From positions 868,001 to 932,000 of the forward strand of contig NZ_WQKZ01000001.1 in NCBI RefSeq assembly GCF_009755225.1: 64,000 nucleotides of DNA. The letters run 5' to 3'. Shown here piece after piece: positions 2,022 to 15,186 of this stretch (position 1 is the stretch's first letter; the number at the start of each line of letters is the position of its first letter). A program made the translations under genes and the position numbers. The DNA is from Hymenobacter ginkgonis (lineage in GTDB: Bacteria; Bacteroidota; Bacteroidia; Cytophagales; Hymenobacteraceae). The notes beneath the pieces are model-generated. The model worked only from the letters and a program-made list of their open reading frames with translations. It had not been told where the DNA came from and made no database searches.

Positions 2022-3890
2022 TTACTTGACCACTAGCTCGGCGGGGGGGCTGTGGCGGCCGTTGGGGGCGATGGCCACGGCCCGCACGGTGAGGCGGCGG
2101 CCCAGCGGCACAGCTACCGGCTGGGTGTAGAGGTCGGTGGTTTCGTCGGGCAGCTTGCCATCCAGGGTGTAGTGAATTTGAGCGCCCGGCACCAGCGAGC
2201 GCAGCGTGAACACAGCCTTGCCGCCCTGCACTACCTGGCTGGCGCTGTCGAGGCCCAAGGGCTCGGGCACGCGGTAGTTGATTTTGTGGAGGTCGAGGTG
2301 GGCGTATTGCTGGCCCAGGCGCGGCAGGAAAGCGGCGTAACTCTTCTGGGCGGCGGGCGTCCAGGCCACTTCGGCCACGGCCAGCAGGCGCGGAAACAGC
2401 ATGTACTCGGCCTTGGCGGGGGTCGTGATGTACTCGGTCCAGAGGTTGGCCTGCACCCCCAAAATGTGCCGCTGCTGGGCCGGCGTCAGCTCGGCGGGCA
2501 GCGGGTTGTAGCTGTACACTTTTTCGAGGGGTAGGAAGCCGCCTATCATTTGGGGCTCGTAGGGGCTGAAAGGGTGGGGGTTCTGGCCGTAGTCGAGGTA
2601 CACGTGGGTGGTGGGCGTCATCACCACGTCGTGGTCGAGTTTAGCGGCTTCGATGCCGCCTTTTTCGCCGCGCCAACTCATGACGGTGGCGCGGGGCGAA
2701 ATGCCGCCCTCCAAAATTTCATCCCAGCCGATGAGCTTCTTGCCCTTGCTCGTCAAAAACTGCTCGATGCGGCGGTTGAACCAACCCTGCACCTGCTCCA
2801 CGTTGGTGTAGCCTTCCTTCTTCATAATATCCTGCACCAGCGCGCTTTCCTTCCAGCGCGTTTTGGGGGCCTCGTCGCCGCCAATGTGCACGTAGCGACC
2901 CGGAAAAAGCTGGCTCACTTCAGCCAGCACGTTCTCGAAAAACTGAATGGTGGCCTCGCTCGGGCACACGATGTCCTCGTTCACGCCCCACATCGGCCAG
3001 GGCGTGTAGGGGCCGGGCCGGCACGCCAGCTCGGGGTAGGCGGCCAAGATGGCCACCGAGTGGCCCGGCATCTCAATTTCGGGCACAATGGTGACGTAGC
3101 GCCGCTGGGCATACGCCACCACCTCCTTAATTTGGGCTTGGGTGTAGAACCCGCCGTAGGGCGTGCCGTCGTACTTAAAATCGGCGGGCGTTTTGAGCAG
3201 TGGCTGCGAGCCGATGAGGGTTTCCTGGCGGAAGGCGCTCACCTGCGTCAGCTTGGGGTATTTCTTAATCTCGATGCGCCAGCCCTGGTCGTCGGTCAGG
3301 TGCCAGTGGAAGGTATTGAGTTTATAAGCGGCTATAAAATCAATGTATTTCTTGACGAATGACACCGGGAAGAAGTGCCGGCTCACGTCGAGGTGCCCCC
3401 CGCGCCAGCCAAAGGCTGGCTGGTCCTGGATGCGCACAAATGGCACGCGCGCGGCGCCGGCCGCGGGCCGCGCCGGCAGCAGCTGCAATAGCGTTTGGGC
3501 GCCGTAGAACAAGCCCGCACCGCCCGCCGCCGCAATGCGCGCACCGCTCTTGTCCACCGTTAGCTGGTAGGCTTCGGAGTTAGCCCCGGCGGGCGTGCTC
3601 ACTAGCCGAATTTGCGCCGTGGCGGCGCTGGTAGTGAGGGTGGCCGTTTTGCCCAGCAGCGCCAGTTGCTCGCGCAGCAGGCCGGCCACGTTCAGCTCGT
3701 CCGGGCTTTGGGCATAGATGCGTAAGGTGGCGGGCAGTGCGTACGTGCCTGCCGAGGTCTGCACGCTGCGCGGCAGGGGCACCAGGCCCAAGGAGGGGGT
3801 AGGGGGCGCCTGAGCTAGTGCCGAGTAGGTAGCTAGGCTGGCAGCAAAAAGGACGAGGTACTTACCAAGCAAAGGAAATTTGGGGGGCAT
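2022..3890 (-). CDS. Family GH20 beta-N-acetylhexosaminidase, secreted
   Basis: Removes terminal beta-linked GlcNAc (or GalNAc) from glycans outside the cytoplasm. Residues 1-27 form a signal peptide ending ALAQA. A GH20 N-terminal alpha/beta domain (about 30-145) precedes the catalytic barrel (about 150-510), which holds FHWHLTDDQGWR and the catalytic pair Asp339-Glu340 in HIGGDEAPKTRW. The last 70 residues look like the C-terminal beta domain often attached to hexosaminidases (IHYTLDG, then VRAVAI). The length of 622 is normal. It is the third gene after susC and susD, 146 bases past susD with a REP-like hairpin in the gap, and is probably transcribed with them. Confidence 0.93.
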   Translation of the reverse strand: MPPKFPLLGKYLVLFAASLATYSALAQAPPTPSLGLVPLPRSVQTSAGTYALPATLRIYAQSPDELNVAGLLREQLALLGKTATLTTSAATAQIRLVSTPAGANSEAYQLTVDKSGARIAAAGGAGLFYGAQTLLQLLPARPAAGAARVPFVRIQDQPAFGWRGGHLDVSRHFFPVSFVKKYIDFIAAYKLNTFHWHLTDDQGWRIEIKKYPKLTQVSAFRQETLIGSQPLLKTPADFKYDGTPYGGFYTQAQIKEVVAYAQRRYVTIVPEIEMPGHSVAILAAYPELACRPGPYTPWPMWGVNEDIVCPSEATIQFFENVLAEVSQLFPGRYVHIGGDEAPKTRWKESALVQDIMKKEGYTNVEQVQGWFNRRIEQFLTSKGKKLIGWDEILEGGISPRATVMSWRGEKGGIEAAKLDHDVVMTPTTHVYLDYGQNPHPFSPYEPQMIGGFLPLEKVYSYNPLPAELTPAQQRHILGVQANLWTEYITTPAKAEYMLFPRLLAVAEVAWTPAAQKSYAAFLPRLGQQYAHLDLHKINYRVPEPLGLDSASQVVQGGKAVFTLRSLVPGAQIHYTLDGKLPDETTDLYTQPVAVPLGRRLTVRAVAIAPNGRHSPPAELVVK

Positions 3891-4036: not shown

Positions 4037-5614
4037 TTACTTATCCCAGTACACGCGGCCCAGCAAGTTGTCGCCGCCCGTAACGGCAGTGCTGGCAGCT
4101 TTGTAATTAGTGGGGTTGCTCGTGATTTCGCCGGTGGGGTAGGGGAAGCGGCGCGGAATCTGGCCGTTGGTGGCGTTGTTGGGGTACACTACCGGCGTGA
4201 GGGTGGGGTAGCCGGTGCGCCGCCAGTTGCTCCACGCTTCGTAAAAATCAAGCATCGAGCAGGTGAGGGCCCAGTACTGCGTATTAATCTGCTCCAAGCC
4301 TTGGGCCGCCGTATAGGGGTGAGCCGCCAGGTAGGCGGTAATGTCGGCTGGGGCCACGGTCATCGTGGCGTCATACTGGCTGAGGTAGCTCATGGCCGAC
4401 GTGACGCCGGCCGTGTAGTGCTGGGCGGCGCTGCCCAGGTTGAAGCGCTGGGCAGCATCGGCCAGCAGCAGCTCCGACTCGGCATAGGTGAGAATGAACG
4501 CGGGGCCAGTCCGCTTAATCATGCCGGGGTTGGGCGAGGAGTAGTCGGGGAAGGTGGTATAGCCCGGCGCCGTCGAGATGTCGTAGGCGGCCCGGCCGCT
4601 CAGGTCGCGGCCGTTGGGCATGCCCTTTTGCGCGGCCGCAGTCGTGACGAAGTTGGCGTTCTGCGTTTTAGAACCGTCCGAGAGGTAAAGCTGCGTCACC
4701 GCGATTTTAGAAAGGCGCGGGTCGTTGTTGGTTTTCAAGTAGTTAATGAAAGTCTGCGACCACTTCACGTAGTAGTGCTCCTGGCCGCCATCGCCGAGCA
4801 GCACCTGGCTGTTGCGGTTTTGGGTGGCGCGGCCGCCGGCCACGTCGAAAAGAACGTAGGCATTGTCGGCGTCGCTAGTCATGGTTTTGCCCTGCACTTG
4901 GGTAGCAATGGCCTGCGCCTTAGCGGGGTCTACCTTCAGCAGGCGCATGCCCAGGCGCAGCAGCAGGGTGTTGCTGAAGCGCTGCCACTGCGCGATGTTG
5001 CCCTTGTAAAAAACGTCGCCCGAGGCAATGTCGGCGCCTGGGTCGAGGGCAGCCGAGGCCTCGGTCACTTCCTTAATCAGGTCGTTGTAGATGTCCTGCT
5101 GCTTGTCGTAAACGGGGGTAATAATGCCCTGGTAGTAGCCCTGGCCGGCCTGCGAGTACGGCGCGTCGCCGTACAGGTCCGTGATGCGCTCCATAATAAG
5201 TGCGCGCATGATGCGAGCTATCTGGTGCAGGTTTTTGTACTGCGGCTTGCCGTCGGTGGAAGCCACGAGGTCCGTCACCGATTTCACCTGCTCCGAGTAC
5301 GCCCGTTCCCAGTAGGCGGCGGTGTAGCCTTCGTTGAGCAGGTACTTATCGCCGGCCCAGTAGCTGATAACCGACGACATGCCCTGCATGAAGGTGGCGC
5401 AGTAAATGAGGTTGCCGCGCCAGGTTTCGTAGGCAAAGTCGGTGCTGCCGGTGTAGGTGAGCTGCGACTGCGTGAGCAGGTAGTTGGCATCGAACGAGGC
5501 CTGGCTGTAGGTCGTCGGGTTGGTGTTGATTTCCTTAAATCTATCGGTACAGCTGCTGGCCAGCAGCAGGGCCGCGCTGGCGAGCACAGTGGTCTTAGTG
5601 AACAGGCTTTTCAT
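4037..5614 (-). CDS. SusD/RagB-like nutrient-binding lipoprotein
   Basis: Surface glycan-binding lipoprotein that works as a lid on the SusC partner channel. It belongs to the SusD-like group with the N-terminal pattern DRFKEINTNPTTYSQ and an all-helical TPR-like fold. I start at MKSLFTKT (5614) because the lipoprotein signal then runs straight into the lipobox LLLASSC; an ATG four codons upstream is less likely. At 525 residues the length is usual. It lies 36 bases after susC and before the GH20 gene, so the three form a polysaccharide-utilisation unit. The glycan bound is inferred from the neighbours, not from this protein. Confidence 0.9.
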   Translation of the reverse strand: MKSLFTKTTVLASAALLLASSCTDRFKEINTNPTTYSQASFDANYLLTQSQLTYTGSTDFAYETWRGNLIYCATFMQGMSSVISYWAGDKYLLNEGYTAAYWERAYSEQVKSVTDLVASTDGKPQYKNLHQIARIMRALIMERITDLYGDAPYSQAGQGYYQGIITPVYDKQQDIYNDLIKEVTEASAALDPGADIASGDVFYKGNIAQWQRFSNTLLLRLGMRLLKVDPAKAQAIATQVQGKTMTSDADNAYVLFDVAGGRATQNRNSQVLLGDGGQEHYYVKWSQTFINYLKTNNDPRLSKIAVTQLYLSDGSKTQNANFVTTAAAQKGMPNGRDLSGRAAYDISTAPGYTTFPDYSSPNPGMIKRTGPAFILTYAESELLLADAAQRFNLGSAAQHYTAGVTSAMSYLSQYDATMTVAPADITAYLAAHPYTAAQGLEQINTQYWALTCSMLDFYEAWSNWRRTGYPTLTPVVYPNNATNGQIPRRFPYPTGEITSNPTNYKAASTAVTGGDNLLGRVYWDK

Positions 5615-5650
5615 ATAGCAAGGCATTGAAAATGAACGGAGTGGCAGGCG

Positions 5651-8600
5651 CTAGAATTTGGCGTTCAGGTTGAGGCCGAACGTGCGCGACGGCGGCACGC
5701 CGCCCAGTTCCAGGCCCTGCGTAAAGGCATTGTAGCTGCCCTCGGGGTCGATGTTGTCGGTGAGGCGCCGGAAGAAAAACAGGTTGCGGGCCACCAGGCT
5801 CAGCGTCAGCCGCTGAATTTTGTTGCCAAACAGCGCGCTCGGAAACGAGTAGCCCAGGGTGATTTGCCGCAGCTTGATAAAGCTGGCATCCTGCACAAAC
5901 TGGCTGCTCACGTTGTTGGCCAGCGTGCCGTAGTAGGTGGCGGCATCGAGCTTATCGGGGCCGAAAGTACCCTCGCGGTTGACCAGTGTTTCCTTGCGCA
6001 AGCCAAAAATGGTGGCGTAGTAGTCGGTGGCCGAGAAGATTTTGCCTCCAAACTTACCGTCAATCAGCACGCCCATGTTGAAGCGGCCCAGGGTAAAGTC
6101 GTTGCTCCAGCCCATCGTCCAGGGGTGGAAGGCGGTGCCGAAGGAAGTTAAGTTACCGCGCAGCGGCACGCCGTTGGTCGTTAGGGCAATCGAGCCGTCG
6201 GCGTTGCGGCTGTAGTCGTAGGCCAGCACCTGGCCAAACGGCTTGCCCACTTGCTGCCCCAAAAAGCCTACCCCCGAGCGGGAGGTGGCGTACACCGACT
6301 GCTGCTGGTCGGCGGCCAAGGACAGCACCGTGTTCTTGTTGTAGGCCGCGTTGAAGGAAGACGTCCAAGTGAAGGTGCTGGTTTTCACGGGTAAGATGGT
6401 CAGCAGCATCTCTACCCCCTTATTTTCCATCTCGCCGGCGTTCAGCACCGCGCCCGAGTAGCCGGAGGTGCCCGAGGCTGGGGTGTTCACGATTTCACCG
6501 GTCGATTTCTTTTTGTAGAACGTCAAATCCAGCCGCAAGCGGTTTTGGAGGAAGGCCAGCTCGGTGCCCACTTCCACTTCGCTGGCCCTAGAGGCGCGCA
6601 GGTTGCGGTTCGGAATGTTGGCATCAGAAGGCCCGCCGTAGGGTACGCCGTTGAGGGTAGTGGCCGACAGCGAGTAGTTGAGCTGGGTCTGGAAAGGCCC
6701 GGTAGCCTGGCCCACTTGCGAGTAGCCCGCCCGGATTTTACCAAACGACAGGATTTCCGGCTTCCACAGCTCCGAGAATACGAACGAGCCGCTCACGCCG
6801 GGGTAGGTGCTGCCCAGGTCATTGCTGACGCCTGGCGTGGCCAGCGACGAAAACCAGTCGCGCCGCACGGTACCCGTCAAATACAGAAATTCCTTGTAGG
6901 ATAAATCCAGCGAGCCGTACACCGACTGCACTTCGAGGTCGGTGAAAATGGGCGTCACGGTCCGCGTTTTGGTGTTGCCGAGCGTGTTGATGCCGGCCAC
7001 GGCAAAGTCGCTGCCCGAGTTAGAAAAACCGTCCTGCTTGGTGCGGCGGTAGCTAGCCCCCACGTTGGGCGTGAAGGTAAACGCCTCGCCCACGTGGAAC
7101 GCCTTGCCCACCAGCCCATCGACGTTGAGGTCCGTAAACTGCGAAGTGATTTCCGTAATGCTGCCCAGCGGGCGGTAGGCCGTGCCCGAGGGCGTCACGG
7201 TGGTGAGGCGGTCGTTGTAGCCATCGCGCCCTACCCGCCCCTGAAAGAACAAGCCGTTGTCGAGGGTGTAGCGAGCCGTGATGTTGGAGAGCAAGCGCTC
7301 GCGCTTGGTGTTGCTTACAAACTGATAGGCTGCAAAATAGGGATTGGTATTGTAGAGGTTGCCCGAGTTGAAGGTGAACTCGTTGCCGTTGGCCAGGGTA
7401 CCATTGCCGTTGGGGCCGCGCAGGTCGCGCACATCGAGGCTGGTAGGCAAAAAGGCCACGTTGAAGTTGGCATTGCCCGCACCGTCCGACAGGATGGGCC
7501 GGTTCCGGGCCTGCTCCAGAATGTAGTTGGCCCGCACGTCGATGGTCAGGTGCTTAAACGGGTCAAAAGTGCCCACCACGTTAAACGTCTGGCGGTCGAG
7601 GCGCGAGTTGGGTATCACGGCCTTATTGGCCAAGTCGCTGGCCGACAAGCGTACCGTGCCCCCCGTAAAGCTCTTGTTGAACGCAATAGTATTGGTGAGC
7701 GCCCCGCCCGTTTGGTAAAAGTTGCGCACGTTGTCGCGCTGCGCCGAGTAGGGCCGCAGGGTCCCGTCGAACTGCACCACTTGCGAGCCATCGAGCCGCC
7801 CGCCCCAACTAGAGTTGCCCGATTGGGCCGCGGCCGCCGCCGTGGTCGGCTTCGTGTTGTTGGCGCCCTGGCCGTAGTCGTACTGCCAATCGGTGAGGGT
7901 AAATACCCGCTGCACCACGTAGTTGCTGTTGAATTCGATGCCGTCGTTGCCCTTGGCGCTCTTGGTCGTTATCAAGATAACGCCGGCCTTGGCCCGGTAG
8001 CCGTACAGGGCCGAGGCGGCCGCACCCTTCAGCACCGAAATCGACTCAATGTCGTCGGGGTTGAGGTTGGAAATGGGGTCGCCGAAGTCGGGCGCGTTGT
8101 CGTACTGCCCGCCGCTGTTGCCAATGGTGGCCCCGGCGCCGCCGCTGGGCTGGCTTTCTACCGGCACCCCGTTGATGACGTAGAGCGGCTGGTTGGTTTG
8201 GTTGATGCTCGACACCCCCCGAATAATGACGTTGCTCGACGAGCCCGGCCCGCCGGCCGTGGAGTTCACGTTCAGGCCGGCCACCTTGCCCACCAAGGAG
8301 TTGGCGATGTTGGTTTCGCGGGCCACCGTGAGGCTGGGCCCCGCTATCTCCGTCACGGAGTAGCCGAGGGTTTTGCGCTCGCGCGAGATGTTCAGGGCCG
8401 TGACTACTACTTCGTCTAGCGCCTGGTTGCTCTCGCTCAAGGTTACGTTCACCACCGACCGGCCGCCTACCCGTACCCTTTGTGCATTGTAGCCAATCGA
8501 CGAGAATACCAGCGTGGCCGTGTCGCCCACCGCCACCGAGTACGTTCCCTCCGCTGTGGTGCTGACGCCCAGCGTAGTGCCCCGCACCACCACCGTAGTG

Positions 8601-8716
8601 CCCGGCAGGCCGCTGCCCCTCTCATCGGTTACCCTACCGGTTACGGTGTGGGTTTGGGCCACCACCAAGCCGGGCAGGCAGAGCAGGGGTAGCAAAAGCC
8701 AAGTAGATTTTTCCAT
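5651..8716 (-). CDS. SusC/RagA TonB-linked outer-membrane transporter
   Basis: Outer-membrane beta-barrel that imports oligosaccharides with energy from TonB, paired with the SusD-like lipoprotein downstream. After a signal peptide (MEKSTWLLLPLLCLPGLVVAQ) comes a carboxypeptidase-regulatory-like domain (about 24-105: VTGRVTDERGSGLPGTTVVV). Next is a plug with the usual QPLYVINGVPVE and LNPDDIESISVLKGAAASALYG, then a barrel ending in a terminal aromatic residue. I start at 8716, where the signal peptide begins; the frame runs 22 codons further up without looking like a signal. The protein has 1021 residues, normal for SusC. The promoter lies about 430 bases upstream. Confidence 0.93.
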   Translation of the reverse strand: MEKSTWLLLPLLCLPGLVVAQTHTVTGRVTDERGSGLPGTTVVVRGTTLGVSTTAEGTYSVAVGDTATLVFSSIGYNAQRVRVGGRSVVNVTLSESNQALDEVVVTALNISRERKTLGYSVTEIAGPSLTVARETNIANSLVGKVAGLNVNSTAGGPGSSSNVIIRGVSSINQTNQPLYVINGVPVESQPSGGAGATIGNSGGQYDNAPDFGDPISNLNPDDIESISVLKGAAASALYGYRAKAGVILITTKSAKGNDGIEFNSNYVVQRVFTLTDWQYDYGQGANNTKPTTAAAAAQSGNSSWGGRLDGSQVVQFDGTLRPYSAQRDNVRNFYQTGGALTNTIAFNKSFTGGTVRLSASDLANKAVIPNSRLDRQTFNVVGTFDPFKHLTIDVRANYILEQARNRPILSDGAGNANFNVAFLPTSLDVRDLRGPNGNGTLANGNEFTFNSGNLYNTNPYFAAYQFVSNTKRERLLSNITARYTLDNGLFFQGRVGRDGYNDRLTTVTPSGTAYRPLGSITEITSQFTDLNVDGLVGKAFHVGEAFTFTPNVGASYRRTKQDGFSNSGSDFAVAGINTLGNTKTRTVTPIFTDLEVQSVYGSLDLSYKEFLYLTGTVRRDWFSSLATPGVSNDLGSTYPGVSGSFVFSELWKPEILSFGKIRAGYSQVGQATGPFQTQLNYSLSATTLNGVPYGGPSDANIPNRNLRASRASEVEVGTELAFLQNRLRLDLTFYKKKSTGEIVNTPASGTSGYSGAVLNAGEMENKGVEMLLTILPVKTSTFTWTSSFNAAYNKNTVLSLAADQQQSVYATSRSGVGFLGQQVGKPFGQVLAYDYSRNADGSIALTTNGVPLRGNLTSFGTAFHPWTMGWSNDFTLGRFNMGVLIDGKFGGKIFSATDYYATIFGLRKETLVNREGTFGPDKLDAATYYGTLANNVSSQFVQDASFIKLRQITLGYSFPSALFGNKIQRLTLSLVARNLFFFRRLTDNIDPEGSYNAFTQGLELGGVPPSRTFGLNLNAKF

Positions 8717-9149
8717 AAGCTTGCAAGGGATTGAGCGTGAAAAGAAACCAGACAACACCAACCGCCAGGCCAGCCCCCGCATCGCCGCGGGGGTGCTGGT
8801 TGCTAGGCGGGTAAGTAAGCAATCGAGAAATAAAAGCTATTCAGACAAAGCCCGGCCTAGCAAGAGGGGGTAGCCGGCTTTAATGCTTGGCAAACTGGTA
8901 GCGCCTGGGCTGGCCAGGGGCTGCGGCGGGTACTTGGCAAGGAGGACGGAATCAGTCAGGGCGGAGCAGTTGCTTCAACGCCTTGGCTACTGAAGGGCCA
9001 CGCGCCCCGTTGGGGACGCGCTGGTTGGTAGGCCGGGTACTAGCCGGCGGCATTCGCTAGGCAGGCAGTCGAAAAGGGCCGGCTGCACCGGGTAGGGCAG
9101 GAGGGGTGTTTTGGCAATAACTGGTGCTCGTTCGCCACGCTACTGGGCT
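8717..9149 (-). other. Long untranslated leader of the susC operon
   Basis: About 430 bases lie between the predicted promoter and the susC start. I find no convincing reading frame, tRNA or known riboswitch fold in it; it is GC-rich with short imperfect inverted repeats only. It may hold post-transcriptional control, but nothing in the sequence proves it. Confidence 0.4.
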
Positions 9150-9180
9150 CAAACATACTGGTTTAACTGGTGTAAAACAA
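9150..9180 (-). promoter_or_regulatory. Predicted susC operon promoter
   Basis: On the minus strand, TTG (9178-9180) is followed after exactly 20 bases by TATGTTTG (9150-9157). This fits the Bacteroidota consensus TTTG, 19-21 bp, TAnnTTTG. The spacer shares TTAC-NN-CAGTTA with the nagB promoter at 13738. Confidence 0.7.
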
Positions 9181-9196
9181 GTTGATGAAATAAAAA

Positions 9197-9212
9197 TGTG
9201 TGCGCACACGCA
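9197..9212. promoter_or_regulatory. Predicted LacI-type operator, susC copy
   Basis: The 16-mer TGTGTGCGCACACGCA contains the perfect 12-bp palindrome GTGTGCGCACAC (9198-9209). Its centre is 50 bp from the centre of the susC -7 element, so it lies upstream of the -33 element, a position that suits activation more than blocking. The same 16-mer occurs before nagB, and the local regulator gene encodes a LacI-type protein. Confidence 0.7.
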
Positions 9213-9252
9213 AAAAAATACTAGTTGCCCACTACGGCCCTGCTTATCGAGG

Positions 9253-10182
9253 CTAGCGCACCGGCTGCCCGGCGCGGCCGTGCTGCGCTAGCACCCGGCC
9301 AATGGCGGCGAGCAGCGAGTTGGCGCCGGCAGCATCCTGCGTTAGTTCCCATATCATAATGCCACTGGCTTGGTCGAGTGCCAGCTGGGTTTTGCTGGCT
9401 ATGGTGGCCAAGCCGTTGTAGCCTACACCGTCGAAGAAGTCGGCTTGCGGGTCGGCGCCCCGCGCCAGTAGCGCGGCAAATGACTCCTGGCTGGGCCGGC
9501 CGTAGAAGGGCACGCCCAGCACCGTCTTGCTGGCCGGTAAGCCGCGGCCTTGCCAATAAGCCAGGGTTTGGGCCGCATCGGCGTAGGTGGAGTGGGCGGG
9601 CGGCGGTGCATCGTAGGCCATAATATTCAGGAAATCAACGCTCTCGAAGACGCTGGGCAAAATGCCCGGCCCCGCCCAGGTGCCCCCGGCCACCGCCGCT
9701 GTAAGCAGGTGCCCGCGGCGGTGCAGCCGGGTAGCCAGCCGCTGCATCAGGGCGGCGTAGCCGGCCGCCGTGCGGGCGTCGGGGTGCTCCCAATCCATGT
9801 CCAGGCCGTCGAGGTGGTACTGCCGTACCAGCCGCAGCAGGTGGCGCACCAGCGCCCGCGAGCGGCCCGCATCGGCCCCAATGGCGTCGAAGGCGCTGTG
9901 GTCGCCGTCGTGCCAGCCGCCTATCGACACCAGCACCTGCACCCGGGCGGCGTGGGCCGCCGCCACCAGGCGGCGCAGCTTGGCGGGGTTTTCGAGGGGT
10001 TCGAGGCCGCCGGTGGCCGTGGGCTGCACAAAGGCGTAGTTGACGTGGGTGAGCTGGGCAAACTGGGTGCTATCGACGTCGCCGCGCCAAGAGGGCACGT
10101 AGCCCACCACCCGAAATTGGGCCCGCGCCACCCCGGGTACCACAAACGCCAGCCAGGCCAGCAGAAAACAGGTTGCGTTCAT
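9253..10182 (-). CDS. Small GH18 glycosidase (chitinase or endo-beta-GlcNAcase type)
   Basis: Secreted GH18 enzyme cutting beta-1,4 links next to N-acetylglucosamine. A signal peptide (about 1-21, ending GVARA) precedes one catalytic barrel. The barrel holds the SxGG-type strand VLVSIGGWHDGD and the active-site motif DGLDMDWE, whose final Glu is the acid and whose Asp positions are all present. NIMAYD and GVPFYGRP are further barrel motifs. At 309 residues it has no binding module or insertion domain, a size also found among endo-beta-N-acetylglucosaminidases, so both activities stay open. It is the last gene of the nagB-permease-GH18 operon, 115 bases after the permease. Confidence 0.88.
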   Translation of the reverse strand: MNATCFLLAWLAFVVPGVARAQFRVVGYVPSWRGDVDSTQFAQLTHVNYAFVQPTATGGLEPLENPAKLRRLVAAAHAARVQVLVSIGGWHDGDHSAFDAIGADAGRSRALVRHLLRLVRQYHLDGLDMDWEHPDARTAAGYAALMQRLATRLHRRGHLLTAAVAGGTWAGPGILPSVFESVDFLNIMAYDAPPPAHSTYADAAQTLAYWQGRGLPASKTVLGVPFYGRPSQESFAALLARGADPQADFFDGVGYNGLATIASKTQLALDQASGIMIWELTQDAAGANSLLAAIGRVLAQHGRAGQPVR

Positions 10183-10297
10183 AGGTGGGGGTAGGAAGAG
10201 AGGTACCTAAAGCTGCGAGGGTATTACCAGTCGGCTGGCTCCCCTTTGCCAAAAGCGAGGGGGTAGGGCCCCACCTAGAGTAGCCAAAAACGGCCAC

Positions 10298-11584
10298 TCA
10301 GGAAACGGGCACGGCGTAGCTCACCCGTCTGTTAGCCTGGTAGGCGTGGCCTTTCAGGGCAAAAAAGAGGATGTATAAGTAGCACGGAATCAGCAGCAAG
10401 TAGGCTTGTTGAAGACCCAGCCACTCGCCCAGCCGGCCGTAGAGGTAGGGCAGCACGGCCCCGCCCCCGATGCCCATTATCAGCAGGGCCGAGCCTTGTT
10501 CCGTGAGCCCGCCCAGCCCCCGGATGCTCAGTGGAAAAATGGCCGGCCACAGCAGTGAGTTGGCCAGCCCCAGCAGCGCCACCAGCAGCACCGAGGGGTA
10601 GCCGTGCGTAAACAAAATGCCCAGGGTAAGCCCTACCCCCACCAGGGCGCACAAGCGCAAAGCGGCCGCCTGGCTCAGGTACTTAGGGATGGCCAGCAGC
10701 CCCACCAAATAGCCCACCAGCATGGCCACGAGCGTGGCCGAAGTAAGGTTTTTGGCTACGTCCAGGCTGATGCCCTGCGCCCGGCCGTACTGAATAATGG
10801 TATCGCCGGCAATCACCTCTACCCCCACGCAGCAGAAAATAGCCAGCACCCCCAACCACAAATGCGGAAACTGCCAAATGCTCGGGGCTGGCTCGTCGGC
10901 CGCGAGCTGGCTGGCGGGGCTATGCAGCTCGATTTCGGGCAAACTCGACCGCCGCACCAGCACTGCCAGCAGCACCAGTGCGCCCGCCATGGCCAGGTAC
11001 GGCACCACTACCCGGCCAGCCAGTTGCTGAAGCAGCGCCTCGCGCTGGGCGGGGGGTAGGGGGCTGGCCAGCTGGCTTTCGAGCGCGCTGGCGCCCCGCA
11101 GCACAATGGCCCCGATAATGAGTGGGCTCAGGGCGCCGGCCACCTTGTTGCAGATGCCCATGAGGCAGATGCGTCGGGCCGCACTCTCCAGCGGCCCCAA
11201 GATGCTGGCGTAGGGGTTAGAGGCCGTTTGCAGCAGCGCCAGCCCCGCGCCCTGCACAAATAGCCCCGCCAGAAACAGCCCAAACGAGCGCGCCTGCGCC
11301 GCTGGCACAAACACCAGGGCCCCCACGGCCATCACCACCAGCCCGAGCGCCATGCCGTTTTTGAAGCCCGTTTTTTGCAAAATCAGCGACGAAGGCAGGG
11401 CCAGCACCACGTAGGCAATGTAGAAGGCAAACGTCACCAGCAGCGCCTGCGAGTAGCGCAGCTCGCAGGCCAGCTTCAGGAAGGGAATCAGCGTGCCGTT
11501 GAGCCAAGTAATGAACCCAAAGATGAAGAACAGCGCCCCAATAATGACCAGGGGTGGGATGGGGGTGGGTCTGGGTTGGGTCAT
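10298..11584 (-). CDS. MFS sugar permease, FHS/NagP type
   Basis: Inner-membrane sugar:proton symporter of the FHS group (fucose-glucose-galactose permeases). This group includes the NagP transporters of GlcNAc clusters. The N-terminus has the group's pattern GALFFIFGFITWLNGTLIP with a following LKLACELRYSQALLVTFAFY, and about twelve membrane segments follow in 428 residues. The gene lies 21 bases after the nagB fusion and before GH18, so free GlcNAc or a small GlcNAc sugar is the likely substrate; this is inferred from context. The frame starts with ATG at 11584. Confidence 0.88.
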   Translation of the reverse strand: MTQPRPTPIPPLVIIGALFFIFGFITWLNGTLIPFLKLACELRYSQALLVTFAFYIAYVVLALPSSLILQKTGFKNGMALGLVVMAVGALVFVPAAQARSFGLFLAGLFVQGAGLALLQTASNPYASILGPLESAARRICLMGICNKVAGALSPLIIGAIVLRGASALESQLASPLPPAQREALLQQLAGRVVVPYLAMAGALVLLAVLVRRSSLPEIELHSPASQLAADEPAPSIWQFPHLWLGVLAIFCCVGVEVIAGDTIIQYGRAQGISLDVAKNLTSATLVAMLVGYLVGLLAIPKYLSQAAALRLCALVGVGLTLGILFTHGYPSVLLVALLGLANSLLWPAIFPLSIRGLGGLTEQGSALLIMGIGGGAVLPYLYGRLGEWLGLQQAYLLLIPCYLYILFFALKGHAYQANRRVSYAVPVS

Positions 11585-11605
11585 GGTCGTGCGCAGGGGG
11601 TAGGG

Positions 11606-13522
11606 TTAAAACCGGTAGCGCACAAACGCCTCAATCGCCTCGTATTCCACCAGGCCCAGCCGGTCGTAGAGCTTGGCCGTGGCGTGGTTGCGGTCTTCCG
11701 AGCGCTGCCAGAATTCGCGTTTGTCGTTGCCCGGAAACACGGCGCTATCCTTCTGGCTTTGGTGCTTAAAAATGGCCTTGCGCTTGCGCATCAGTTCCTC
11801 GGGGCTGATGGGCACGGCCATCTCGATATCCTCCACATCCCACTCCTGCCAGGCCCCGCGGTACAGCCACATGTAGCAGTCGTCTACCCATTCTTCGCGG
11901 CCCTTGAGGCGGGCCAGGGCCGCAAAAATGGCGTCCAGGCACACGCGGTGCGTGCCGTGGGGGTCGCGCAGGTCGCCGGCCGCAAAAATCTGGTGCGGCT
12001 TGATTTCCTGTAGAATAGCTATCGTTTCCTCAATGTCGGCCTCGCCCAGCGGCTTCTTTTTCACCTGCCCGGTTTCGTAAAACGGCATGTTCATAAAATG
12101 CACGTTGGCTTCCTGCACGCCGCAGTAGCGGCAGGCCGCCGCCGCCTCGCCCCGGCGAATAAGCGTCTTGATGTTTTGCACCAGCGCGCTGTCTTCTTCG
12201 CCCAGCTTTTTGTGGTGTAAAAACTCCACCACCTCGGCGTGCTCGCGGCGCATGTCGGCCACGCCTACCCCCGACTTTTCGGCAAAGCCCAGGGCGAAGT
12301 CCGCGAAGCGCCGCGCGTCGTCGTCAAACACGGCAATGTTGCCCGAGGTCTGGTAGGCCACGTGCACGTCGTGGCCCTGGTCTACGAGGCGCAGCAGTGT
12401 GCCGCCCATCGAAATCACGTCGTCGTCGGGGTGCGGCGAGAAAATGAGCACCCGCTTGTGGGCCGGCAGCGCCCGCTCGGGCCGCTGCGTGTCGTTCGAG
12501 TTGGGCTTGCCGCCCGGCCAGCCCGTAATGGTGCGCTGGATGAGGTTGAATATCCGCAGGTTAAGGTTGTAGGCATTGCCAGCCTGCACCAGCAAGTCGC
12601 TCAGGCCGCCATCCTTGTAGTCTTCGTCGGTGAGTTTGAGAATGGGCTTTTGCGTCTTCAAACTCAGCCAGAGCACCGCCCGCCGAATCAGGCTGTCGTC
12701 CCAGGTACACATGCCCACCAGCCAGGGCGTTTTGATGCGCGTCAGCTCCAGGGCCGCCCACTGGTCTACCACCACCTGCACCCGGGGGTGCAGCTGCAAA
12801 AACGTGGCTGGCACCTCGTCCGACACCCGGCCCTCCACGGTCTCGCGCAAGATTTTGGCCTTGCCCTCGCCCCAGGCCATCAGGATGATGCGCCGCGCCT
12901 TAAGAATGGTGCCCACGCCCATGGTTAGGGCCCGCAGCGGCACGTATTCTTCCTTGATAAAGTCCTTGGCCGCGTCCGTAATCGTCAAAGGGTCAAGCTT
13001 GACGAGGCGGGTAGGTGAACTGCTCGACGAGCCGGGCTCGTTGAAGCCAATGTGCCCCGTGCGGCCAATGCCCAGCAGCTGCAAATCGAGCCCGCCACAT
13101 TCGTCAATTTGCTTTTCGTAGTTGCGGCAGTACTCCTTTATCTGCTCAATGGGCAGCGTACCGTCCGGGATATGCACGTTTTCCGGCCGAATATCGACGT
13201 GGTCGAACAGCTGCTCGTGCATGAAGTAGACGTAGCTCTGGAGCTCGTCGGGCTGCATAGGGTAGTACTCATCGAGGTTGAACGTCACCACGTTCTGAAA
13301 GCTCAAGCCTTCCTCGCGGTGCAGGCGAATCAGCTCTTGGTACACGCCGATAGGCGACGAGCCGGTGGCCAGGCCCAGCACGGCCAGCTTGCCCTTGCGC
13401 TGCTTGCTGCGAATCAACTCGGCAATTTCGTGGGCGATGCCAATAGCCCCCTCCCGCGCCTCTGCCACAATCGTGACCGGCAGCTTTTCGAAGGCAGTTT
13501 CAGGGTAATGCAGTACTTCCAT
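11606..13522 (-). CDS. nagB: Glucosamine-6-phosphate deaminase fused to a PIG-L/LmbE deacetylase-like domain
   Basis: A 638-residue two-part cytoplasmic enzyme. Residues 1-270 are NagB, converting glucosamine-6-phosphate to fructose-6-phosphate and ammonia; FNLDEYYP (Asp84, Glu85) and GIGRTGHIGFNEPG (152-164) are the active-site motifs. Residues about 355-638 are a PIG-L/LmbE fold with the zinc motif SPHPDDD (362-368) and a second ligand region PHGTHR. This longer NagB form is known in Bacteroidota, but what its second half does is not settled; removing the acetyl group from GlcNAc-6-phosphate is a fair guess since no nagA lies in the window. It leads the operon, behind a promoter and operator at 13738-13801. 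Confidence 0.9.
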   Translation of the reverse strand: MEVLHYPETAFEKLPVTIVAEAREGAIGIAHEIAELIRSKQRKGKLAVLGLATGSSPIGVYQELIRLHREEGLSFQNVVTFNLDEYYPMQPDELQSYVYFMHEQLFDHVDIRPENVHIPDGTLPIEQIKEYCRNYEKQIDECGGLDLQLLGIGRTGHIGFNEPGSSSSSPTRLVKLDPLTITDAAKDFIKEEYVPLRALTMGVGTILKARRIILMAWGEGKAKILRETVEGRVSDEVPATFLQLHPRVQVVVDQWAALELTRIKTPWLVGMCTWDDSLIRRAVLWLSLKTQKPILKLTDEDYKDGGLSDLLVQAGNAYNLNLRIFNLIQRTITGWPGGKPNSNDTQRPERALPAHKRVLIFSPHPDDDVISMGGTLLRLVDQGHDVHVAYQTSGNIAVFDDDARRFADFALGFAEKSGVGVADMRREHAEVVEFLHHKKLGEEDSALVQNIKTLIRRGEAAAACRYCGVQEANVHFMNMPFYETGQVKKKPLGEADIEETIAILQEIKPHQIFAAGDLRDPHGTHRVCLDAIFAALARLKGREEWVDDCYMWLYRGAWQEWDVEDIEMAVPISPEELMRKRKAIFKHQSQKDSAVFPGNDKREFWQRSEDRNHATAKLYDRLGLVEYEAIEAFVRYRF

Positions 13523-13656
13523 AGCTGGCGTGTAGCGTGAAAGGTGGTAAAAGATTAAAAATCAGGTTGTAAAAACCGGGTGTAAATCTTCTGCTTTCTT
13601 GCCTGGGCATCGCACGCAGCTAGTAGCCTGCGGCAGATGCCGGCCCGTCGTATTCG

Positions 13657-13695
13657 ACCAGCCCCAAGCGGGCCGGTAGCCCGCTTGGGGCTGGT
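13657..13695 (-). other. Strong hairpin in the nagB leader
   Basis: Perfect 17-bp inverted repeat (13657-13673 and 13679-13695) with a five-base loop CGGTA, in the untranslated leader between the predicted start of transcription (near 13731) and the nagB ATG. It has no T-run on either side, so it is not a normal terminator. It may stabilise the message or take part in control. Confidence 0.6.
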
Positions 13696-13737
13696 GGTGC
13701 AATAGTATTTTTCTTATAAATTGCGCTTGTACTGCCT

Positions 13738-13768
13738 CAAACATAAGCAACTAACTGAGGTAAGTCAA
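13738..13768 (-). promoter_or_regulatory. Predicted nagB operon promoter
   Basis: On the minus strand TTG (13766-13768), exactly 20 bases, then TATGTTTG (13738-13745). The layout equals that of the susC promoter, including the shared words TTAC-NN-CAGTTA in the spacer and GAG directly after the -7 element. Confidence 0.72.
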
Positions 13769-13785
13769 GGGCCTTAATAAAAAAA

Positions 13786-13801
13786 TGTGTGCGCACACGC
13801 A
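13786..13801. promoter_or_regulatory. Predicted LacI-type operator, nagB copy
   Basis: An exact copy of the susC 16-mer TGTGTGCGCACACGCA (palindrome 13787-13798). Its centre is 51 bp from the nagB -7 centre, against 50 bp at susC. It also lies in the gap shared with the divergent regulator gene. Confidence 0.72.
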
Positions 13802-13815
13802 AAATATTCGCTTAG

Positions 13816-13831
13816 AGTGTGCGCGCACGCA
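13816..13831. promoter_or_regulatory. Second operator-like site, regulator side
   Basis: AGTGTGCGCGCACGCA agrees with the other two sites at 14 of 16 positions and holds a 10-bp palindrome GTGCGCGCAC (13819-13828). Its centre is 31 bp, about three helical turns, from the nagB copy and 42 bp from the -7 element assigned to the regulator gene. It could serve autoregulation or cooperative binding. Confidence 0.55.
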
Positions 13832-13861: not shown

Positions 13862-13869
13862 TATCTTTG
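13862..13869 (+). promoter_or_regulatory. Candidate -7 element of the regulator gene
   Basis: TATCTTTG fits TAnnTTTG and faces the LacI-type gene 217 bases downstream. The -33 region is only a T-run, so the call is weak. The leader 13870-14085 shows nothing else I can name. Confidence 0.4.
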
Positions 13870-14085
13870 GCCCATAGGTAGCACTCAGGGAAGACGCACG
13901 CAGCCCAATCGTTTCCGAGGCCGGCTGCTGCTAGCTGGTTGCTCCGGGCGTAGGGCAGCTACCTGTAGGTAGTAGGCCGGGGTAGGCGGTCCCAACACTC
14001 GCTGCACTGGGGGGGCTGGTTTATCCCGGCTTCTTTCCGTAATACATTTGGCAAACTTTCACGGCAACGAGCACGGACGACACTC

Positions 14086-15186
14086 ATGGGAAAAATTGCG
14101 GTGCGCATCAAGGATATAGCGGCCAAGGCCAACGTGTCGGTCGGCACCGTCGACCGGGTGCTGCACAACCGGGGGCGGGTGTCGGAGGAGGTGCGGCAGA
14201 AGGTGCTGCTCATGATGAAAGAGCTTGATTACGAGCCTAATATGATAGCCCGTACCCTGGGCTCGAACCGCACCTACCACCTGGCGGCCATCCAGCCCGA
14301 CCACACCCTCGACCCCTACTGGCACGCCCCCTGGGAGGGCATCGAGAAGGCCGCCCGCGAGCTAAAGCAGTACGGCATCACGCTCACCGTTTATTCCTAC
14401 GAGCTCACGCAGGTCGGCTCTTTTCGGGCGCAGGCCGAGGCCGCTACCCAGTCGCAGCCCGATGGCATCCTGATTGCACCGCTATTTTACCGCGAGTCGC
14501 TGGAGTTTTTTGAGCGGTGGCAGCAGCTAGACATTCCTTACGTGCTGTTCAATACCTACATCGCGGAGGTGCCGGCGCTCAGCTACGTGGGGCAGGACTC
14601 GTACCAGAGCGGCTTTTTGGCGGGTAAGCTAGTGCAGGTGGGGCAGGCGGGGCCGGGTACCTTCGTTATCGCGCACGTGGCCGAAGACATTGCCAACTCG
14701 GTGCACATCACCCAAAAAGAGCGAGGCTTCCGCGACTACTTCGCGCAGCTGGCCACCGCGCCAGAAAGCCTTGGGCTCGAGGCAGCCCCGCACCAAAGCC
14801 AGTACACCATCCTGAGCGTTGATTTGCCGCAGCCCGCCGACCCTTTATTTGCCCGGCAGCTGAGCCGGCTGCTCGATGAGGAGGCGACCGAGCTGAAAGG
14901 CATCTTCGTGAGCACTTCCAAGGCGTTTGAAATCGCGCCCTATCTACAGGCCTATCGCCGGGAAGATATCCGCTTGGTAGGCTACGACTTACTAGAAAAA
15001 AACCTGCACTTCCTCAACGAGGGCATCATTGATTTTTTAATCAACCAAAACCCTAAGAAGCAGGGCTACCGCGGGCTCTATGCCCTGGCCGACCTGCTGG
15101 TTTTTAAGAAGGAAGTGGCGCTGGTAAAGTATCTGCCGCTCGATATCATCACCAAGGAAAATCTACAGTACTACATCGCCAAGTAG
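14086..15186 (+). CDS. LacI-family transcription regulator
   Basis: DNA-binding sugar sensor of 366 residues. The first 60 residues hold the LacI helix-turn-helix and hinge (IRIKDIAAKANVSVGTVDRVLHN, then ELDYEPNMIARTLGSN). The rest is a periplasmic-binding-protein-like ligand domain of the type common in Bacteroidota, with a clear second lobe (SVDLPQPADPLFARQLSRLL, FVSTSKAFEIAP). It is transcribed away from nagB across a gap that holds two operator-like palindromes; a third lies before susC. The simplest reading is that it controls both operons and itself. The operator position argues for activation. The effector is likely a GlcNAc-related sugar or phosphate, by inference only. Confidence 0.9.
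   Translation: MGKIAVRIKDIAAKANVSVGTVDRVLHNRGRVSEEVRQKVLLMMKELDYEPNMIARTLGSNRTYHLAAIQPDHTLDPYWHAPWEGIEKAARELKQYGITLTVYSYELTQVGSFRAQAEAATQSQPDGILIAPLFYRESLEFFERWQQLDIPYVLFNTYIAEVPALSYVGQDSYQSGFLAGKLVQVGQAGPGTFVIAHVAEDIANSVHITQKERGFRDYFAQLATAPESLGLEAAPHQSQYTILSVDLPQPADPLFARQLSRLLDEEATELKGIFVSTSKAFEIAPYLQAYRREDIRLVGYDLLEKNLHFLNEGIIDFLINQNPKKQGYRGLYALADLLVFKKEVALVKYLPLDIITKENLQYYIAK

Follow-up and report, generated by a model that had tools for sequence, protein, structure and literature searches.

A LacI-type regulator and a fixed upstream operator at two GlcNAc-type operons of Hymenobacter ginkgonis

Two neighbouring operons of Hymenobacter ginkgonis, susC-susD-GH20 and nagB-MFS-GH18, share a promoter module in which a palindromic operator stands at a fixed distance upstream of the promoter. 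An earlier note on this DNA proposed that the module is controlled by the LacI-type protein encoded at 14086. This is strongly supported: the geometry recurs across families, regulator and site occur together, and the recognition helix covaries with the operator. The site, the promoter, their spacing and conservation, the co-occurrence and the covariation are read directly from the sequence; the further step, that the regulator activates both operons, is judged probable.

Gene content of the locus

Coordinates refer to the window, which is the whole 64-kb stretch of DNA that was analysed. Both operons are on the minus strand. The first encodes a SusC/RagA-family TonB-linked outer membrane transporter (5651-8782), a SusD-like lipoprotein (4037-5626) and a GH20 beta-N-acetylhexosaminidase (2022-3890). 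The second encodes a fusion of a nagB-type glucosamine-6-phosphate deaminase with a PIG-L domain (11606-13522), an MFS transporter whose top match, under the equivalog cut-off, is the GlcNAc transporter NagP (10298-11584), and a GH18 (chitinase-type) glycoside hydrolase (9253-10182). The operators of the two operons are 4.6 kb apart. The regulator gene (14086-15186, plus strand) is divergent from nagB; its product has 366 aa and consists of a LacI helix-turn-helix (ANVSVGTVDRVLHNRG) and a Peripla_BP_4 sensor domain. Judged by its gene content, the locus appears to be of the chitin or GlcNAc type.

Operators and promoters

The exact 16-mer TGTGTGCGCACACGCA is found at 9197-9212 (susC) and 13786-13801 (nagB), as the earlier note had it, and there is no other mismatch-free copy in the window. 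The susC operator comprises a 12-bp palindrome (9198-9209) and a promoter-distal GCA. The earlier note overlooked a second, imperfect operator upstream of nagB (GTGTGCGCGCACGCA, 13816-13831), which has two mismatches and is 30 bp further from the promoter than the proximal operator. The susC promoter of H. ginkgonis has no recognisable distal operator, and its site is single. Outside the 12-bp palindrome all three operators (9197-9212, 13786-13801 and 13816-13831) are asymmetric, with GCA on the promoter-distal side; the orientation of the operator relative to the promoter is thus almost fixed in Hymenobacter.

Across the 5.67 Mb genome, exact matches to the 14-mer TGTGTGCGCACACG are found solely at the susC and nagB operators, and there is no additional exact site which would indicate a wider regulon. 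One site with a single mismatch (L003) is flanked by mob-type and par-type genes and sits inside another dyad. The sequence GTGTGCGAACACGCA is present in up to three copies in Hymenobacter genomes that lack the 14086-type regulator (L038; G001, G034, G050, G053, G062 and G110); these copies may be repeats or may belong to a different regulon.

On the minus strand, each copy of the 16-mer is followed by TTG (9178-9180 for susC, 13766-13768 for nagB), exactly 20 bases and TATGTTTG (9150-9157 and 13738-13745), and the operator and box centres are 50 bp (susC) and 51 bp (nagB) apart; these claims of the earlier note hold. Both promoters fit the sigma-ABfr (Bacteroidota housekeeping) class, the consensus of which is TTG or TTTG at -33 and TANNTTTG at -7 (PMC6847099). 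TTG-N20-TANGTTTG is found at 8 places in the genome, two of which are the susC and nagB promoters. In F. johnsoniae, the T of TA in the -7 box is position -12 (PMC6847099); by this numbering +1 falls on a conserved A, and the operator centre lies at -59.5 where the gap between operator and box is 41 (nagB) and at about -58.5 where it is 40 (susC), instead of near -57 as first stated. The starts, which had been placed at 9143 and 13731, are now predicted at 9144-9145 for susC and at 13733, in a conserved CA, for nagB. A T-tract immediately downstream of the susC operator (9192-9196, minus strand), which is conserved in 54 promoters of relatives, is a possible landing site for the alpha-CTD.

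The two window promoters do share TTAC-NN-CAGTTA in their spacers. The motif is not conserved in relatives and so is judged to be a chance or strain-specific match; it was rejected as a shared functional motif. Spacer identity among relatives is 0.36-0.37 within an operon and 0.30 between operons.

The probable promoter of the regulator gene itself, TACATTTG (14043-14050, plus strand), is 35 bp before the ATG and more than 200 bp away from the operators. Boxes resembling it are found near the start codon in relatives (for example L025 and L027-L029). Autoregulation from the twin sites by way of TATCTTTG at 13862, which in H. ginkgonis is at a plausible distance, was rejected because several relatives repeatedly show boxes close to the start codon.

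Conservation of the module

Relatives were gathered by protein similarity and by whole-genome search, and their promoters were aligned on TANNTTTG. Fifty-four promoters were chosen by an exact TANNTTTG at an operator gap of 39-42. They were split by position in the fetched stretch into 21 susC and 33 nagB promoters; a few susC-side promoters from loci with other layouts fall under the nagB count. The earlier note had suggested searching Hymenobacter genomes for the palindrome and its distance to the box, and in this search the module is conserved: the 54 promoters share the operator, the T-tract, TTG, TANGTTTG and a conserved CA at the expected start. In every one of them exactly 20 bp separate TTG from the -7 box. 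Operator and box are 41 bp apart in 37 promoters, 40 in 13, 42 in 3 and 39 in 1, and the location of the susC operator is conserved in the 21 susC promoters. Linkers and spacers are near background (identity 0.32-0.39 over the 54 promoters), and the nagB leader varies in length from 147 to 221 nt among relatives. For these reasons the fixed spacing between operator and box is taken to be under selection and not mere inherited sequence.

A second operator is found 30-33 bp (about 31) further upstream in 47 of the 54 promoters. Where a proximal operator did not pass the filter, the box at 41-42 differs from the consensus by one mismatch (TATGTTTA or TATATTTA) and is still preceded by TTG at 20 bp; in two loci (L064 and L081) the distal operator alone is intact. 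Between -40 and +150 there is no operator match in any of the 54 promoters, and the mean best score is below that of shuffled sequence. The operator in or downstream of the promoter, which is classical for repressors that act by overlap, is thus absent from all of them.

The geometry of 49-51 bp is repeated in homologous loci of other Cytophagales, of a Prolixibacteraceae species (Gaoshiqia) and of Flavobacteriaceae. In the loci outside Hymenobacter the distance is 49-52 for 12 operator/box pairs, where about 1.1 would be expected in a 4-bp window. Another cluster, at 79-82, consists of distal sites together with Flavobacteriaceae sites that face the regulator's own promoter. Six loci of Flavobacterium, one genus of the Flavobacteriaceae, have TAGTTTCG at 49 bp on the divergent side. 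Among the divergent genes of the loci outside Hymenobacter, which were named by inspecting sequences, are those for NagB (L093 and L104), a ROK sugar kinase (L095), SusC (L124) and a nucleotidyltransferase (L036, L122 and L132). Several more distant homologues have no consensus box at 49-51 bp. In Flavicella (L036/L037, 9880-9945), the stretch that separates the regulator gene from the nucleotidyltransferase gene has three CG-centred palindromes of the TGTGYTCGARCACA type in a row, spaced about 22-23 bp.

The regulator and its probable operator

The regulator has the features of the LacI/GalR family. Its helix-turn-helix matches PF00356 with 59.6 bits (cut-off 27), its sensor domain matches PF13407 (Peripla_BP_4) with 128 bits, and its probable operator is a CG-centred palindrome that varies with the residues of the recognition helix. 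Among solved structures, the top match of the sensor domain is PDB 3gbv, a putative LacI-family regulator (E 1.9e-48). Of 120 congeners, 35 have an orthologue. Thirty of these 35 also carry the exact 15-mer, whereas none of the 85 that lack the regulator does; this co-occurrence is partly linkage, as the sites adjoin the regulator gene. Over 46 homologues, the operator centre is TCGA in 14 of the 16 which have K or R at the recognition-helix position and in none of the 30 with other residues (Fisher p 5e-10; kinship is ignored, and independence is overstated as the promoters are related by descent). Because the helix residue covaries with the operator centre, the 14086 protein very probably binds the palindrome. 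If it reads the operator centre as proposed, a V-to-K change in the helix should swap its preference between GTGTGCGCACAC and TGTGCTCGAACACA.

The palindrome might belong to another regulator, the LacI-type gene being a mere neighbour; the genome does hold seven further LacI-type genes as well as other regulators. However, the recognition helices of those seven differ from that of the 14086 protein, exact sites are confined to genomes that bear the regulator, and the covariation over the 46 homologues speaks for this protein, so that ownership by another regulator is highly improbable. The other LacI genes were also considered as a control for the geometry and had too few clear operators. In one congener (G011), an 83%-identical nagB is found with neither regulator nor palindrome; the gene context is altered too, and this loss is weakly informative.

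Activation and repression

In the explanation which is preferred here, the 14086 protein would bind the GTGTGCGCACAC palindrome upstream of both operons, presumably in dimeric form, and at nagB another dimer would occupy the distal site. Positioned at about -59.5, always on one face of the helix and beside the T-tract, the protein would recruit or stabilise the Bacteroidota housekeeping RNA polymerase, probably through contacts with the alpha-CTD and/or sigma region 4. Its target promoters would have a good -33 TTG and an intrinsically poor -7 box, TANGTTTG. The regulator would thus be a class I-type activator, and its signal is probably a GlcNAc-derived compound. This explanation, taken as a whole from site to recruitment to weak box, is considered likely.

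The site lies upstream of -35 on a fixed face of the helix (centre -58.5 to -59.5, gap 39-42), which is the class I arrangement. cre boxes upstream of -35 are generally associated with activation by CcpA in a manner that depends on the face of the helix (PMC3463425), and PckR was predicted to be dual from the position of its site (PMC4052901). All 54 regulon boxes have a G at -9; among the remaining intergenic TANNTTTG boxes in the H. ginkgonis genome, 8 of 57 do. G at -10/-9 is described as 'virtually zero' among 241 F. johnsoniae promoters (PMC6847099). Activation is favoured because the upstream site keeps to one face, a T-tract is at the position which an alpha-CTD would occupy, the promoter is free of operators and the -7 box has G at -9. 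The earlier note had pointed to activation from the position of the site. We infer the same with the presumably weak -7 box and the operator-free promoter added, while allowing that contact repression of the GalR type is possible from -60.5.

LacI-family proteins mostly repress, and the 14086 protein could do so from the same sites if it held the polymerase in an unproductive state from -59.5 until a GlcNAc-derived inducer released it. GalR bound at OE (-60.5) represses galP1 in this way, by contact with the alpha-CTD on the same face, and such contact would likewise fix the helix phase (PMC4693257); lev offers a CcpA example of repression from upstream (PMC3463425). The invariant -33 TTG is also in keeping with a repressor, and together with a near-consensus box it could give some basal activity, which is counted against activation. 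However, every Hymenobacter promoter has a -7 box of the disfavoured type, which is odd where a repressor must silence; the box is sometimes presumably weaker still (TATGTTTA, TAGTTTCG), and no operator overlaps the promoter. Contact repression is therefore regarded as unlikely. Repression by looping, in which dimers at the twin sites would bridge to those of the other operon across 4.6 kb and close both promoters, could draw on the two to four operators per locus and on the helix phase that distal sites hold at about 31 bp. It is very unlikely, given that every site is upstream of its promoter with none in or downstream of it, that the susC site is single in this strain, and that loops would not call for so rigid a distance (41 bp) between operator and -7 box.

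Leader elements

The nagB leader has a conserved element at about +22 to +32 (13701-13711, minus strand), the register of which is kept in Hymenobacter and other Cytophagales. Its consensus, AAARTCYTATT, keeps a constant register relative to the start at susC as well as at nagB (about 54 promoters of relatives), and exact matches to box plus element across the genus are all regulon promoters. Forms such as AAAGTACAATTT in related families deviate from this register by no more than one base. The element may be the site of a second regulator or a linear RNA signal. An RNA hairpin was rejected: there is a neat stem in some relatives, yet stems are not enriched compared to other leader positions. 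The action of the LacI-type protein from -59.5 could be supplemented by a second regulator, or by control at the RNA level, acting on this element. Such dual control is suggested by the constant register, which the two operons share with related families, but no protein or RNA partner was found, the element has no Rfam match, and at the susC promoter of this strain it is weak or absent. This addition is possible but doubtful.

The predicted susC leader (8782-9144) is about 360 nt long, compared to an average of 33 nt reported for F. johnsoniae, and has no Rfam match. The nagB leader contains a strong inverted repeat (CCAGCCCCAAGCGGGC...GCCCGCTTGGGGCTGG, 13630-13700) without a T-run; its sequence is not conserved in relatives.

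Significance and comparison with known systems

It is about an even call whether proteins with the helix ..GTVDRVLHxRG.. form a phylum-wide LacI-type subfamily of Bacteroidota, mainly activators of sigma-ABfr promoters that act from a fixed -59 site on aminosugar and related genes and that are coupled with the +22 to +32 element in Cytophagales. To our knowledge, the ways in which activators engage the divergent RNA polymerase of Bacteroidota are little known. The module is simple, natural and highly constrained, with one or two palindromes, a fixed 41-bp gap and defined -33 and -7 boxes, and is testable in one strain. If the explanation is true, a local one-component LacI-type activator joins the known control modes of SusC/SusD operons, and the module could serve in Bacteroidota as a ready-made promoter part that responds to GlcNAc or chitin.

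No description of a regulator of the 14086 type or of its promoter geometry was found in the open-access literature searched. The earlier note held that LacI control of a SusC operon would be less usual. This fits the HTCS and SusR systems described in PMC3878776, and the two-component control in F. johnsoniae (PMC5127042). The ChiUL of F. johnsoniae resembles the locus in having GH18, GH20, NagB, SusC/D pairs and an inner-membrane transporter, but is controlled by the two-component system CusS/CusR and has no LacI-type control (PMC5127042). KdgR, UxaR, UxuR and UxmR of Bacteroides are likewise LacI-family regulators of sugar genes in Bacteroidota and were predicted by comparative genomics; they differ in controlling uronate pathways, and neither promoter geometry nor activation was found described for them (PMC3878776).

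Two further parallels are CcpA and GalR. CcpA of Bacillus subtilis (ackA, pta, ilvB) is a LacI-family protein that uses a CG-centred palindrome upstream of the promoter, with dependence on the face of the helix, and its upstream site predicts activation (PMC3463425). It is, however, a global regulator with HPr as partner, whereas the protein described here would be a local regulator of a GlcNAc-type locus, with sigma-ABfr promoters and a spacing of about 31 bp between twin sites. GalR at OE in the gal operon of E. coli is a LacI-family dimer at a nearly equal distance from the start which contacts RNA polymerase (PMC4693257). It represses P1 and activates P2 from OE and uses an internal operator too, whereas none was found here.
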